In this document: positions 2,728 through 45,601 of the stretch, one piece after another
Position numbering within the stretch: the first letter of the stretch is position 1
Layout of the letters: each line of letters starts with the position of its first letter
NCBI GenBank assembly: GCA_900315675.1
Contig: OMZY01000018.1
Span: 30,306 to 94,305, forward strand
DNA length: 64,000 nucleotides
DNA from: an uncultured Eubacteriales bacterium
GTDB lineage: Bacteria; Bacillota; Clostridia; Christensenellales; Aristaeellaceae
Reading direction: 5' to 3'
Notes under the pieces: model-generated
Database searches by the model: none
Told to the model about the DNA's origin: nothing
What the model saw: only the letters and a program-made list of their open reading frames with translations
Position numbers and translations under genes: made by a program

Positions 2728-3555
2728 ATGAGCAAAACAAAGGATCGGATCCGGGAAAGCAATCTCCGGTATAAACAGTCCCTCGGACAGAATTTCCTTT
2801 ATGATGAGGCACTGCTGGCGGAACTGACCGCCGCGGCGGGCGTCACGAAGGATGAGGATGTGCTGGAGATCGGACCGGGCTGCGGCAGCCTGACAAAGCA
2901 TCTGTGCGACGCGGCGAACAGCGTGCTGGCCGTGGAACTGGATGAGCGGCTGATTCCGCTGCTGAAGGCCTTCCTGGACGAGAAAAAGAACCTGACCGTG
3001 GTGCAGGGCGACGTGATGTCCCTGAACCTGCAGGAGATTACAGCCGGGCTGAAAAAGCCCTTTGCCGTGGTGGCGAACATTCCTTATTATATCACCACGC
3101 CCCTGATCAAGCTGCTGCTGACCGGCGGCCTGCCGGTGAGCCGGCTGGCCCTGATGGTGCAGAAGGAAGTGGCGGACAAGATCCTGGCTTCCCCGGGAGA
3201 GGAAAGCTGGGGACCGCTGTCGATTCTGTGCCGGTTCCTGTGTGAACCGCGGCTGGCGGTGGATGTGCCGGCAGAAATGTTCACGCCCCCGCCGAAGGTG
3301 GACAGCGCGTTTGTGGTGCTGCCCCTGCGGGAGAAGCCTGCCGTGGATGTGAAGAGCACGGAGATGTTCTTCAGGGTAGCTAACGCGGCGTTTGCCATGC
3401 GGCGCAAGACCATGCTGAATAACCTGTGCGCCACCTTCCGGGTGGAACGAACGGTAGCGGCCGGATGGATGAGTGCGGCCGGCCTGGATGAAAAAGTCAG
3501 GGGCGAGAAACTGACTTTGGAAGAACTGGCGCGTTTGGCTGACGCGATAGAATAA
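2728..3555 (+). CDS. rsmA: 16S rRNA (adenine1518-N6/adenine1519-N6)-dimethyltransferase
   Basis: The enzyme dimethylates two adjacent adenosines in helix 45 of 16S rRNA using S-adenosylmethionine, a late step of 30S assembly. Residues 18-24 (SLGQNFL) are the family N-terminal signature. VLEIGPGCGSLT (45-56) is the SAM-binding motif I and NIPYYI (117-122) the catalytic motif IV. The length of 275 residues is normal. The start has AAGGAGG upstream at a good distance. It appears to be a single-gene unit with its own promoter. Confidence 0.95.
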   Translation: MSKTKDRIRESNLRYKQSLGQNFLYDEALLAELTAAAGVTKDEDVLEIGPGCGSLTKHLCDAANSVLAVELDERLIPLLKAFLDEKKNLTVVQGDVMSLNLQEITAGLKKPFAVVANIPYYITTPLIKLLLTGGLPVSRLALMVQKEVADKILASPGEESWGPLSILCRFLCEPRLAVDVPAEMFTPPPKVDSAFVVLPLREKPAVDVKSTEMFFRVANAAFAMRRKTMLNNLCATFRVERTVAAGWMSAAGLDEKVRGEKLTLEELARLADAIE

Positions 3556-18567: not shown

Positions 18568-19515
18568 ATGACAACGAGAACTGCCGCAAGGCATATAAAG
18601 CACCGCAATCCCATGGACCGGCAGGGGCCCGGGGACAAAGTGATCAGCGTGGTCACCTATATCGTCTACGCGTTCTTTGCCTTCGTCTGCGCCTACCCGT
18701 TCTACTACATCATTATCAACTCCATCAGCGCCAACAACCTCTCCGAACGCGGCAAGGTCCTGTTCTGGCCCATGGAGATCCACTTCAAGAACTATACCCG
18801 GCTGACCAGTATTCCCGGCCTGCTGGACGCGGCAAAGATTTCCGTGCTGCGGACCGTGATCGGTATGGCTCTTACGGTGCTGATCGCCGCCTTCCTGGGC
18901 TATATGTTTACCCGGGAAACCATGTGGAAACGGAAACTGTGGTTCCGCTTTGTGGCCGTAACCATGTATTTCAACGCCGGTATCATTCCCTGGGTGCTGT
19001 GCATGCGGAACCTGGGACTGAACAACAACTTCTGGGGCTATATTCTCCCGATGGTGATCCAGCCCTTCTATATCATCCTGTGCAAGACCTATTGTGAATC
19101 GGTTCCCAGGGAACTGCAGGAGGCTGCCGAAATAGACGGCGCCGGGACGCTGAAGGTATTCTTCCGGATCATGCTCCCGGTTATCAAGCCCATCCTGGCC
19201 ACCATCGCGATCTTCGCGGCGGTGAACCAGTGGAACGCCTTCCAGGACAACCTGCTCCTGATGCCCAACCGCCGGGACCTGGACACCCTGCAGTACAAGC
19301 TGTGGCAGTATATCACCCAGGCCAACAGCCTGAAGGCCCTGGTCAGCAACACCACCAACTCCAACGCGATTATGGCCGGTATGGCCACCGCCGCCACGGC
19401 GACCGCCATCCGGATGTCCGTTACCGTTGTGGTTGTGCTCCCCGTCATGATGATCTATCCCTTCTTCCAGCGGTACTTTACGAAGGGAATTATGATCGGA
19501 GCGGTGAAGGGCTAA
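18568..19515 (+). CDS. ABC permease, YtcP/UgpE type (importer 2)
   Basis: A 315-residue permease, partner of the LplB-type gene. The EAA loop is LQEAAEIDGAGTLKVFFRIM, and the C-terminus (YFTKGIMIGAVKG) is the YtcP-type signature. The group typically imports complex sugars or oligouronides. A long structured leader of 600 bp then separates it from its binding-protein gene. Confidence 0.92.
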   Translation: MTTRTAARHIKHRNPMDRQGPGDKVISVVTYIVYAFFAFVCAYPFYYIIINSISANNLSERGKVLFWPMEIHFKNYTRLTSIPGLLDAAKISVLRTVIGMALTVLIAAFLGYMFTRETMWKRKLWFRFVAVTMYFNAGIIPWVLCMRNLGLNNNFWGYILPMVIQPFYIILCKTYCESVPRELQEAAEIDGAGTLKVFFRIMLPVIKPILATIAIFAAVNQWNAFQDNLLLMPNRRDLDTLQYKLWQYITQANSLKALVSNTTNSNAIMAGMATAATATAIRMSVTVVVVLPVMMIYPFFQRYFTKGIMIGAVKG

Positions 19516-19535: not shown

Positions 19536-19665
19536 AATGAACAATTAACAATTAACAATGAATAATGAGAGTGTGTAACGACAAATTGTGAAACGTTACG
19601 GCGCGTGAAAGAACGTTGGTCTGGAGAATAAAGTATTAATTCTTCATTTTTCATTCTTCATTTGG
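19536..19665. repeat. Inverted pair of heptamer arrays
   Basis: AATTAAC/AATGAAC-type units at 19536-19569 face ATTCTTC-type units at 19635-19665, with about 65 bp between. Confidence 0.7.
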
Positions 19666-19700
19666 AATAAAGACCAGAAGGTCTTTATCATATTTAAAAG

Positions 19701-19826
19701 GGAGGGGAGCGAGGGAAGCGGTGTCCCAGTGGGACATTTGCCGAAGGCAAAAGCGACCCGAACGAGTCAACCGAAAGGGAGAGCAAAGTCCGCTCCAAGG
19801 ACTTTGAGCGACCATTGAGGTTGCGG
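19701..19826 (+). ncRNA. Candidate structured element, copy A
   Basis: It begins GGAGGGGAGCGAGGG and ends ATTGAGGTTGCGG. Three local hairpins are predicted: TGTCCC-AGT-GGGACA, TTGCC-GAA-GGCAA and CAAAGTCC...GGACTTTG, plus a long-range CAACC with GGTTG pairing. The same fold with different paired bases is found in copies B and C. Strand is assigned by the direction of the flanking genes. No Rfam family is recognised. Confidence 0.5.
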
Positions 19827-19871
19827 TAGTAGTCGATGTGGGCGCGCAAGCCCTTACATCATATATTAAAA

Positions 19872-20000
19872 GGAGGGGAGCGAGGGAAGCGGTGCCACAG
19901 TGTGGCATTTGCTGAAAGCAAAAGCGACCCGAACGAGTCAACCGAAACAAGCAGAAGGCTGCAACGACAGCAAGGCCTTCTGCGACGATTGAGGTTGCGG
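19872..20000 (+). ncRNA. Candidate structured element, copy B
   Basis: It is aligned to copy A end to end. The hairpins become TGCCAC-AGT-GTGGCA, TTGCT-GAA-AGCAA and GCAGAAGGC...GCCTTCTGC, so both sides of each stem have changed. The core CCGAACGAGTCAACCGAAA is identical to copy A. Confidence 0.5.
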
Positions 20001-20074
20001 ACCAAGGAATTATGGCCTGCAACGACAGCAAGGCCTTCTGCGACGATTGAGGTTGCGGACCAAGGAATTATGGC
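19959..20074. repeat. 58-bp perfect tandem duplication
   Basis: Units 19959-20016 and 20017-20074 are identical. Each contains the second half of hairpin 3 and the 3' end of element copy B followed by an ACCAAGGAATTATGGC tail. This is a recent local duplication. Confidence 0.9.
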
Positions 20075-20116
20075 AGCATTGCCAAAAATTCATATATTTA
20101 AAGGAGGGTATTGCAA

Positions 20117-21802
20117 ATGAAACGGTTTCTGTCTGTTCTGCTGACAATTGCCATGCTCCTGAGCCTGGTAACCATCAGCGCGGTGGCTGAGGAAGAAGCA
20201 CCCCTCGTCATCGATGTGTACGATGATGCCGCCAACTACAACGGCATCCAGAGTGGCTGGTTCGCCAAGGTGATTAAGGATCGGTTCAACATCGAACTGA
20301 ACATCATCGCGTCCCAGGTGGTTGGTAATACTGTCTATGCCACCCGTTCCGAAGAAGGAAATCTGGGTGACATCCTGCTCGTGGACAAATCCAAGTTCCC
20401 GGAAATCGTGGAAGCCGGCCTGGCCAAGGATATCAGCGACAAGCTGCCCGGCTGCGAAAACATCATGAAGTTCAAGACCCAGATCGACGTTTACAACAAG
20501 GGCCTGACCGGTGAAGAAGGCAAGTACTACGGCATTCCTACCGAAATGACCGATACTTCCCCCAGCACCCTGACCGATGACGTGATCTATTCCAGCCCCA
20601 TGCTCCGCTGGGATCTGTATAAAGAGATCGGCGCCCCGAAGCTGGAGACCCTGGATGACCTGCTCGACGCTCTGGTGAAGATCCATGAGATCCATCCCAA
20701 GAACGAACAGGATGATCCCGCTTATCCCTTCTCCCTGTGGCCCGACTGGGACGGCAACGACAACATGGTCGGTCCGGCCAACGTTGTGCAGCTGACCACC
20801 TGGTACGGCGAAAAGTTGAAGGGCAGCGCCATGCTGAAGCCCGACAACACCTTCAGCAAGCTCTATGAACGCGACAGCGCCTACTACAAAATCACCAAGT
20901 TCCTGAACAAGGCTTATCAGCTGGGTCTGGTGGATCCGGACTCCGGCACCCAGAACTGGGATAACGCCTGCGCCAAGATGTCCTCCGGCCGCGTGGACGT
21001 GATGTGGTACAGCTGGCAGGTTGGTTTCTGGAACAGCGTGGACCGTCTGAACGCCGGTACCGCTTTCCGCTTCATCCCCGTTGGCGATATGCAGTTCTAT
21101 GCTGACGCTGACCGTTACTACGGTTCCGACCGTATGTTCGGTATCGGCGCCGGTGTGGAAGGCGAGAAGTATGACCGGATCATGGAATTCCTTGACTGGT
21201 ATGCCAGCCCCGAAGGCGTCACCTTCCAGCACAACGGTATCGAAGGCCTGAACTACACCATCGGCGAAGATGGCAAGTTCGTGCCCTACAAGGACAACGC
21301 CCTGATGGACAACCTGCCCGTGCCGGACGAATTCGGCGGCGGCGGATTCAGCGACGGTAACAACGCCATCAACCAGTGGATCGTTTCCTCCATCTGCGTG
21401 AACCCCACCACCGGCGAGCGCTTCGCCCAGAAGTACTGGCAGTCCTACAAGGACATGACCATGACCGAGATGAAGAAGGAATGGTCCGAAATGTTCGACG
21501 CTGAGGACGATGTTGACTGGATGAAGAAGAACGGCAAGCTGCTGGCCAGCCCGAGCGTTGACTTCACCCCCGCTGCGGACGACAACACCATCGCTGCCAT
21601 CCGTACCGACGTCAACAAGTGCCTGTGCGAATACACCTGGAACCTGTTCTTCTGCGCTTCTGACGACGAGTTCGAAGCCATGTGGGACGAAATGATCACC
21701 CAGCTGGACGGCTTCGACTATCAGACCCTGTTCGATTATGACTGCGCTCTGTGGCAGCCCGAAATCGACGCGAAGGTTGCTGCTGCGGCCGCCGCGGAAT
21801 AA
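20117..21802 (+). CDS. ABC transporter solute-binding protein, LipO-like (importer 2)
   Basis: A 561-residue binding protein, long as usual for partners of LplB/YtcP permeases. A signal peptide (1-24, ending ISAVA) has no lipobox cysteine. The mature region contains DILLVDKSKFPEIVEAGLAK, then YYGIPTEM and a block of aromatic residues. The ATG at 20117 lies 9 nt after GGAGG. The gene is separated from its permeases by the structured leader, which may set its expression. The tail is alanine-rich (VAAAAAAE). Confidence 0.92.
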   Translation: MKRFLSVLLTIAMLLSLVTISAVAEEEAPLVIDVYDDAANYNGIQSGWFAKVIKDRFNIELNIIASQVVGNTVYATRSEEGNLGDILLVDKSKFPEIVEAGLAKDISDKLPGCENIMKFKTQIDVYNKGLTGEEGKYYGIPTEMTDTSPSTLTDDVIYSSPMLRWDLYKEIGAPKLETLDDLLDALVKIHEIHPKNEQDDPAYPFSLWPDWDGNDNMVGPANVVQLTTWYGEKLKGSAMLKPDNTFSKLYERDSAYYKITKFLNKAYQLGLVDPDSGTQNWDNACAKMSSGRVDVMWYSWQVGFWNSVDRLNAGTAFRFIPVGDMQFYADADRYYGSDRMFGIGAGVEGEKYDRIMEFLDWYASPEGVTFQHNGIEGLNYTIGEDGKFVPYKDNALMDNLPVPDEFGGGGFSDGNNAINQWIVSSICVNPTTGERFAQKYWQSYKDMTMTEMKKEWSEMFDAEDDVDWMKKNGKLLASPSVDFTPAADDNTIAAIRTDVNKCLCEYTWNLFFCASDDEFEAMWDEMITQLDGFDYQTLFDYDCALWQPEIDAKVAAAAAAE

Positions 21803-45118: not shown

Positions 45119-45345
45119 GACATTGTTCCCCTTTGAATTCTTCGTTTTGCGCGTCCGCTTTCCGAAGACCCTCTGAACAGCGCTGATTACAGATTCCACC
45201 TATAAGACGAATGAGGAGGGGAAAAAGTTTTCATTCTGAAAACTTTTTTGAAAAAGAAAAAGCCGCGTCCGGAATGAACACGGCGGGTAGGCGGATGGCC
45301 AGAGTTATAAGGTGTTCCGTAAATGTTGAAGGTTCAGGTCCCCGG

Positions 45346-45506
45346 AGGAGATTTCCCCGCAACTTCAATCGTCGCGTCTCACGCTTGGAGCGCGCTCGCC
45401 GCTCGTTTCAGTTGACTTGTTCGCATCATTTCGGCTTCGCCGACAGCGCACTGCGCTGACATTCAGCTCGCTCCCCACGCGGCCTGCGGCTTCGGTCGAA
45501 ATGACA
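45346..45506 (-). ncRNA. Candidate structured element, copy C, with TGTCATTTCGACC ends
   Basis: Read on the reverse strand it starts TGTCATTTCGACC, continues into GGGGAGCGAG and then shows CAGCGC-AGT-GCGCTG, TCGGC-GAA-GCCGA, GCGAACAAGTCAACTGAAAC, and ends GATTGAAGTTGCGG then GAAATCTCC. The hairpins and the CAACT with AGTTG pairing mirror copies A and B with changed bases on both sides. Here the element lies inside the shorter TGTCATTTCGACC repeat seen at 3852. Confidence 0.5.
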
Positions 45507-45543
45507 CGCGGAGGCGCTGATTGATTCACAACTTTCAGGACAC

Positions 45544-45582
45544 TATATCATTTTTCATTTTTAATTCTTCATTCTTCATTTC
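45544..45582. repeat. Heptamer array, ATTCTTC/ATTTTTC type
   Basis: About four imperfect units after a TATATCATT boundary, just beyond the DegV stop. Confidence 0.7.
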
Positions 45583-45601
45583 ATCGGATATTGATCATAG
45601 A

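Follow-up and report, generated by a model that had tools for sequence, protein, structure and literature searches.

Between an importer permease gene (18568–19515, forward strand; a listed open reading frame with PF00528) and a putative solute-binding-protein gene (20117–21802, forward strand; PF01547 at E 1.4e-4 and 22.5 bits, below the Pfam cut-off of 26), the window, meaning the whole 64,000-nucleotide stretch of DNA that we analyzed, carries hairpin-rich sequence whose paired stems differ between copies. The question is whether this sequence is a leader RNA of the importer, a structured RNA of another kind or a DNA element. We consider it probable, with real room for doubt, that it is an interspersed repeat of about 120 bp, mobile but non-autonomous and found in one bacterial family as sampled, which acts as a folded single DNA strand.

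Copies in the window

The original prediction treated 19701–20000 as one structured element. The element sequence is present there, but the span consists of two copies plus a linker. Copy A, a type 1 element with the core GGGG...GCGG, occupies 19704–19826 of the forward strand (142.0 bits to our covariance model R1; match 19701–19826), its ends being set from 107 copies; the conserved unit begins at GGGG, 3 nt inside the model match. Copy B, type 1 with a different P5, follows on the same strand at 19875–20000 (127.2 bits; match 19872–20000). Copy C, also type 1, lies on the reverse strand at 45357–45476 (112.3 bits; match 45357–45479), within another hairpin repeat. All three are where they had been placed and belong to one family, and the stems quoted for them can be read: TGTCCC/GGGACA in A versus TGCCAC/GTGGCA in B, TTGCC/GGCAA versus TTGCT/AGCAA, and in C CAGCGC/GCGCTG, TCGGC/GCCGA and CAACT/AGTTG for CAACC/GGTTG. 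The element is absent from all three orthologous gaps of copy C that we read. In one genome of the genus (G284, locus L350) the surrounding repeat occurs at the orthologous site with no element in it. Copy C thus seems to have been inserted into the repeat.

Repeat searches revealed further structure around these copies. In an exact 58-bp tandem duplication (19959–20074, forward strand), the 3' end of copy B recurs together with its linker. A stretch resembling a leader with a ribosome-binding site, conserved among relatives, lies immediately 5' of copy A (19688–19706, forward strand), and similar leader-like stretches precede copy B (19859–19877) and the binding-protein gene (20090–20108). 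A hairpin followed by ATCATATA and a ribosome-binding-site leader before the binding-protein gene can be recognized at 19660–19706, 19845–19877 and 20060–20108 and in the orthologous gaps (L207–L231); its stem, too, changes on both sides among relatives. A+T-rich repeats of the types AACAATTAACAATGAATAATGA and TTCATTTTTCATTCTTCATT adjoin copies A and C (19540–19665 and 45555–45585). The hairpin repeat that houses copy C (45300–45520 and L350; TGTCATTTCGACC...GGAAATCTCC) also combines stems with G·A steps, and repeats like it are widespread in bacteria.

A dispersed family with sharp ends

A BLAST search with copy A gave 27 matches in its own genome (3.62 Mb, 57 contigs). The covariance-model search that had been proposed, run with R1 (built from 11 own-genome copies), recovered a dispersed family. 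At E<=0.1 the own genome has 54 places, of which 30 score above 50 bits, and seven genomes of the same genus have 162 matches (five genomes contribute 99 at E<=1e-5, two others 63 at E<=1e-6). Some named records duplicate genomes that carry G labels (L063 and L164, for example, match G097). For the structural analysis we used an alignment (A3) of 116 matches at E<=1e-15 from 99 chosen loci, 110 of them distinct, with weak and strongly mosaic copies left out.

The unit is about 120 bp long and G+C-rich (mean 0.61 versus 0.54 in own-genome loci). Its ends are sharp over 107 copies with different flanks, GGGG at the 5' end and GCGG, mostly followed by A, at the 3' end, and no flanking position outside the unit is strongly conserved. 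Copies can be modular and mosaic. In 8 of the 110 (type 2) entire blocks are swapped, with CAAAC opposite GTTTG and a last stem that ends GCGAACGG. Three mosaic copies (L160 and L161, both at 1501–1676, and L212 at 2943–3119) have, close to where the element halves join, a hairpin insert that is G+C-rich (GGAGTCCT...GAATCC).

The family is narrowly distributed. Among 297 genomes sampled across the order, 10 had matches. All belong to the same family, which the sample covers with 23 genomes from 4 genera, and none of the 274 genomes outside it matched. When a collection of 84,980 species was searched with a DNA pattern for the element, 99 stretches were found; the 80 that were fetched were all titled Clostridia, Clostridiales or Candidatus Limiplasma. 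One pattern stretch came from a viral collection, where an 8.2-kb contig bears two copies along with a gene that matches a Pfam phage-protein domain, and type 2 was found in another contig of that collection. Copy A had no match in phage, plasmid or E. coli collections, and we found no description of the family in the open-access literature.

A fold kept by double-sided changes

That the paired stems reflect a conserved fold, and not chance, is now strongly supported. Over the 110 distinct copies, 97.4% of 2619 helix cells are paired (73.7% in shuffles), 21 of 24 base pairs show double-sided changes, and the covariation score is 0.634, compared with 0.195 in shuffled alignments and 0.036–0.082 when partners are slid. 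With three extra pairs, double-sided changes affect 24 of 27 and the score is 0.616. These figures come from an alignment fitted to the model and hence biased towards its structure; unfitted MAFFT/RNAalifold recovered the helices of the 5' half and not P4/P5. We dropped a pairing noticed by eye, and left uncounted, between 5' GGAGCG and the P5 loop CGCTCC.

The consensus structure is asymmetric, P0–P3 being unlike P4–P5, and is built of short Watson-Crick blocks with tandem purine (G·A) mismatches between them. The P2 loop has three bases in all 110 copies (AGT in 79, GGT in 18, TGT in 13) and the P3 loop in 99, with GAA in 77. Folded alone as DNA, copies A and B and locus L135 lie below shuffled sequences (z of -2.98, -2.99 and -2.25); the values as RNA are -3.25, -3.09 and -1.60. 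Copy C folds no better than shuffles as DNA (-0.34; the RNA value is -0.57), and its lowest-energy fold differs.

Paired arms might also be maintained by replication itself. On such an explanation, which we consider improbable, the element would be inverted-repeat DNA spread and kept paired by template switching or gene conversion, with no enzyme of its own and no selection on shape. Long flanking direct repeats and tandem arrays, mosaic copies, double-sided changes with few intermediates and the lack of a mobiliser among the genes searched (below) are all in keeping with it. However, self-correction should turn G·A into Watson-Crick pairs, yet tandem GA/GA is retained at three places in 96, 98 and 106 of 110 copies, and this persistence argues against mere palindrome self-correction. 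The sharpness of the ends in 107 copies, despite their different flanks, speaks against it as well.

Wobble pairs as a test of DNA or RNA

If the fold were an RNA, G·U pairs should be tolerated better than A·C mismatches. In the element helices (2619 cells) we counted 2527 Watson-Crick pairs, 23 G·U, 31 A·C and 38 others, whereas 30 of the 46 TPP riboswitch matches in the genus gave 442, 59, 4 and 5, and 30 distinct tRNAs, called by ARAGORN, which may not bracket A·C, gave 584 Watson-Crick and 49 G·U. The G·U share is thus 0.9% of cells in the element, 11.6% in TPP and 7.7% in tRNAs. Comparing G·U with A·C in the element and in each control gives p about 9e-10 for TPP and 1e-11 for tRNA, the former dropping to p=0.044 when two fixed TPP G·U columns are omitted. 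Unfitted MAFFT/RNAalifold counts for the element were 2195 Watson-Crick, 40 G·U, 20 A·C and 43 others, with 20 of the 40 G·U in one pair that is absent from the model. Wobble pairs seem to be tolerated no more than A·C, which would be expected of a paired DNA strand, and the pairing statistics suggest that the element works in the form of folded DNA and not as an RNA switch.

These counts bear directly on the most serious rival, namely that the element is a structured RNA (an mRNA stability, processing or regulatory element, or a small RNA) spread by duplication and selected as RNA. We regard this as rather unlikely. It would account for the good RNA folding energy of copies A and B, for the conserved purF–purM copy with in-place compensating changes described below and for a sense bias relative to the upstream gene (62 sense, 33 antisense and 11 undetermined among 106 copies; p=0.004 with related loci counted separately). 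Tandem G·A pairs occur in RNA too and are compatible with it. Against it stand the scarcity of G·U relative to A·C and to both controls, the absence of an orientation bias to the downstream gene (43 sense, 36 antisense, 27 undetermined by the tally), copies that are antisense to both neighbors, tRNA gene copies split by the element (below) and the lack of an Rfam match. Rfam gave no match at gathering score in the whole window, just two weak matches to unrelated families in the A/B region at E<=10, and in six further loci at E<=0.5 a tRNA, a 5S rRNA and three weak matches below gathering score, none of them on the modeled element.

Gene calls for these orientations came from an in-house codon-usage script. 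Copies are mostly intergenic. Overlap with a predicted gene exceeds 20 nt in nine cases, always in sense; eight of these copies lie at the 3' end of the gene and one (L147) at its predicted start.

The folded-DNA reading also has a general implication. Structured RNA is what covariation is usually taken to signal; here it is massive while G·T is no commoner than A·C, a combination that points to folded DNA. The G·U-to-A·C ratio offers a simple test to which other orphan RNA motifs could be put.

The importer setting and orthologous gaps

Copies A and B lie in sense between permease and binding-protein genes, and the original prediction saw the element as part of an importer leader, with regulatory RNA as one of its possible functions. 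A genus search over 45 genomes returned 26 importer loci, 24 of them readable with both neighbors. The type 1 element is present in 5 of these 24 orthologous gaps and neither element type in 18; another element, which shares the 3' half, sits right behind the permease stop codon in 5 loci, 4 of which also have type 1. This second element type (L208, L212, L213, L215 and L224) has another 5' hairpin (CCTCTTTTGA...TCAAAAGAGG) and the common 3' half (TCAACCGAAA...TTGAGGTTGCGG).

A leader RNA that controls the importer operon of A and B would fit their position and the presence of a unit at the same ribosome-binding site in four genomes; in G284, G297, G322 and the own genome the unit begins directly after AAGGAGGG, with a further leader-like stretch behind it. 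Other importer operons of this type carry copies as well; these operons, however, are numerous paralogues, many copies lie elsewhere, and the 18 empty gaps contradict such a general role, as does the near-even orientation to the downstream gene. We therefore hold a leader RNA to be very improbable. The importer-leader location is true of copies A and B and not of the family; judged from these gaps, the setting is incidental and no family property.

Element-free orthologous sites such as these lead us to infer that the element is, or has been, mobile. Some sites tell another story. The element is found at the same place between purF and purM in five loci, where its 5' end encodes the last PurF residues. 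In four of them it is 89–98% identical, versus 71–76% at purF third codon positions; in the fifth (L108) it is 78–81% identical, no more than purF (79–82%). Reading of 30 purF–purM loci of the genus showed 10 with the element, 3 with a 3'-end remnant only and 17 with neither. Double changes have occurred there in place, an outer pair going from G-C to A-T and P1 from GGC/GCC to GCC/GGC. This copy may have been kept for a host role, or may be uniform through gene conversion. Since several species have conserved it, some copies may serve the host, and a regulatory role at single sites such as purF–purM is possible.

tRNA genes and flanking repeats

The flanks of the element are enriched for several features. 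A tRNA gene lies <=300 bp from 18 of 110 copies, with about 1.4 expected (1.2 Mb of sampled genome), and a T-loop motif occurs <=30 nt 3' of the unit in 7 of 107 copies and in 2 of 817 control windows; in these counts, as in those of flanking repeats below, same-locus and orthologous copies are not independent. Twelve loci, chosen for their flanks or variant, were read singly, the unbiased count remaining 18 of 110. In L201 and L150 the copy splits in the T-stem a tRNA-Ser with a promoter-like stretch of its own, and an intact tRNA copy follows; in L159 it sits in the T-arm of a tRNA-Pro-like sequence, and in L156 in the D-arm of a tRNA 5' part (all by reading). In L155, L202 and L236 it lies between antisense and sense tRNA 3' parts, behind an intact tRNA gene. 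All 8 type 2 copies of the alignment, which are among the twelve loci, have tRNA-derived flanks.

Flanking inverted repeats (score >=24) were found at 12 of 107 copies, compared with 0.4% in shuffled flanks, and flanking direct repeats (score >=32) at 27 of 107, compared with 1.4%. The direct repeats vary in length, some stem from tandem element copies, and the left repeat copy often ends exactly at the element. Together, these features suggest insertion into hairpins with target duplication. Copies in tRNA gene copies beside an intact one provide a testable model of how small elements can enter essential genes while the host survives.

A model of insertion and the search for a mobiliser

A mechanism consistent with these observations can be outlined. 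An exposed strand, for instance behind the replication fork, would fold into two short hairpins on a stem (P0–P3) beside a longer stem (P4–P5), with tandem G·A pairs sitting between the Watson-Crick blocks. A putative enzyme supplied in trans would recognize the folded shape and join the unit into a new site, often a hairpin or tRNA arm, and insertion, often with a long target duplication, would leave a working host gene. Copies would afterwards be inherited, some being kept or co-opted and others decaying. The replication-strand bias is weak (67 lagging versus 45 leading, p=0.047; 52 to 35 after collapsing, p=0.086), based on 112 of 123 copies, with origin and terminus placed by eye from sampled GC skew and positions transferred by hand. 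It is too weak to serve as proof.

The search for a mobiliser found none. The Y1 transposase domain had 24 matches in six genomes, with frames of 245–341 aa in all six, and no listed element match lies within 2 kb of any of them, so a Y1 transposase adjoining the copies was rejected. Five of the 24 matches have frames of 112–155 aa, all in G179, and two of these loci were read; in L441 a 155-aa Y1 gene has a weak element match (24.2 bits) about 0.2 kb away. Two of the three own-genome Y1 loci are associated with other palindromes (by eye). Y1 transposase genes in L031 and L033 of the own genome are surrounded by palindromes of other kinds (GTTGACAGAGGGACGGGG..., and GGAACGATAGGGACAGTCCCTATCGTTCC on both sides). 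The IS110 (bridge-RNA) family was rejected as a general mobiliser, PF02371 being present in 2 of 6 genomes and absent from the own genome. In L447 (1276–2649) and L446 (645–2325, broken), IS110-family genes and an element match are separated by about 0.13 and 0.37 kb. A recurrent partner gene was also discarded: gene clusters of three or more consist of importer permeases, binding proteins, purF/purM and other neighbors, and no transposase or nuclease gene is recurrent beside the copies, as judged by reading of the neighbors. The idea of a transposon-linked guide-like RNA, also raised originally, found no backing in such neighbors or in a near Rfam family at E<=10.

A more specific proposal, which we put forward tentatively, is that the element could represent a separate class of mobile DNA. 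This class would combine an asymmetric multi-hairpin single-strand fold, almost wobble-free helices and obligatory tandem G·A pairs; it would enter DNA hairpins, above all tRNA T- and D-arms, with a long target duplication that leaves a working tRNA gene, and would be driven by an unrecognized enzyme or by the replication machinery. An enzyme that recognizes the fold, if one exists, would be either a new recombinase of single-strand DNA or a known one put to a new use.

Comparison with known systems

HEARO, a dispersed structured element in bacteria, had been suggested for comparison. Our element resembles it in dispersal and structure and differs in having no covariance-model match to Rfam, HEARO included. 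Non-autonomous derivatives of IS200/IS605 have folded single-strand ends and a lagging-strand link. The element would share the folded single strand and, weakly, the lagging-strand link. Among the few Y1 loci read, none was seen to share its ends, and a quarter of its copies have long direct repeats of variable length.

MITEs are described as short, highly base-paired, non-coding and multicopy (PMC3049150), as is the element. Unlike MITEs as described there, it is G+C-rich and has no terminal inverted repeats, none being seen when the 5' end GGGGAGCGA was compared with the reverse complement of the 3' end CCGCAACCTC; among the direct repeats that flank 27 of 107 copies no target duplication of fixed length was recognized.

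BOX elements of Streptococcus are, according to the same paper, modular, intergenic, strongly folded, presumed parasitic and able to add coding ends (PMC3049150), and all of this can be said of our element. They also have terminal inverted repeats that resemble an IS of their host (PMC3049150). The modules of our element appear to be other than boxA, boxB and boxC, and no terminal inverted repeats were seen when its ends were compared.

REPs and REPINs, with their RAYT transposases, are presented in two papers as dispersed, mainly extragenic DNA hairpins with compensating changes and no gene of their own (PMC3116915, PMC2817692). The element agrees with them in each of these respects. It differs in that its unit is asymmetric with several hairpins, whereas a REPIN, by the same accounts, is two inverted REPs, and in that the search turned up no RAYT gene with the element on its flanks. 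Of the three functions originally offered, a REP-type DNA element is the best fit: copies are dispersed, orthologous sites can lack the element, the ends are sharp and G·T is tolerated no more than A·C. The likeness holds for the kind of element rather than for its design. We conclude that the element represents a new family of probably mobile DNA, small, folded and dispersed, which is REPIN- or BOX-like in kind and has a design of its own.
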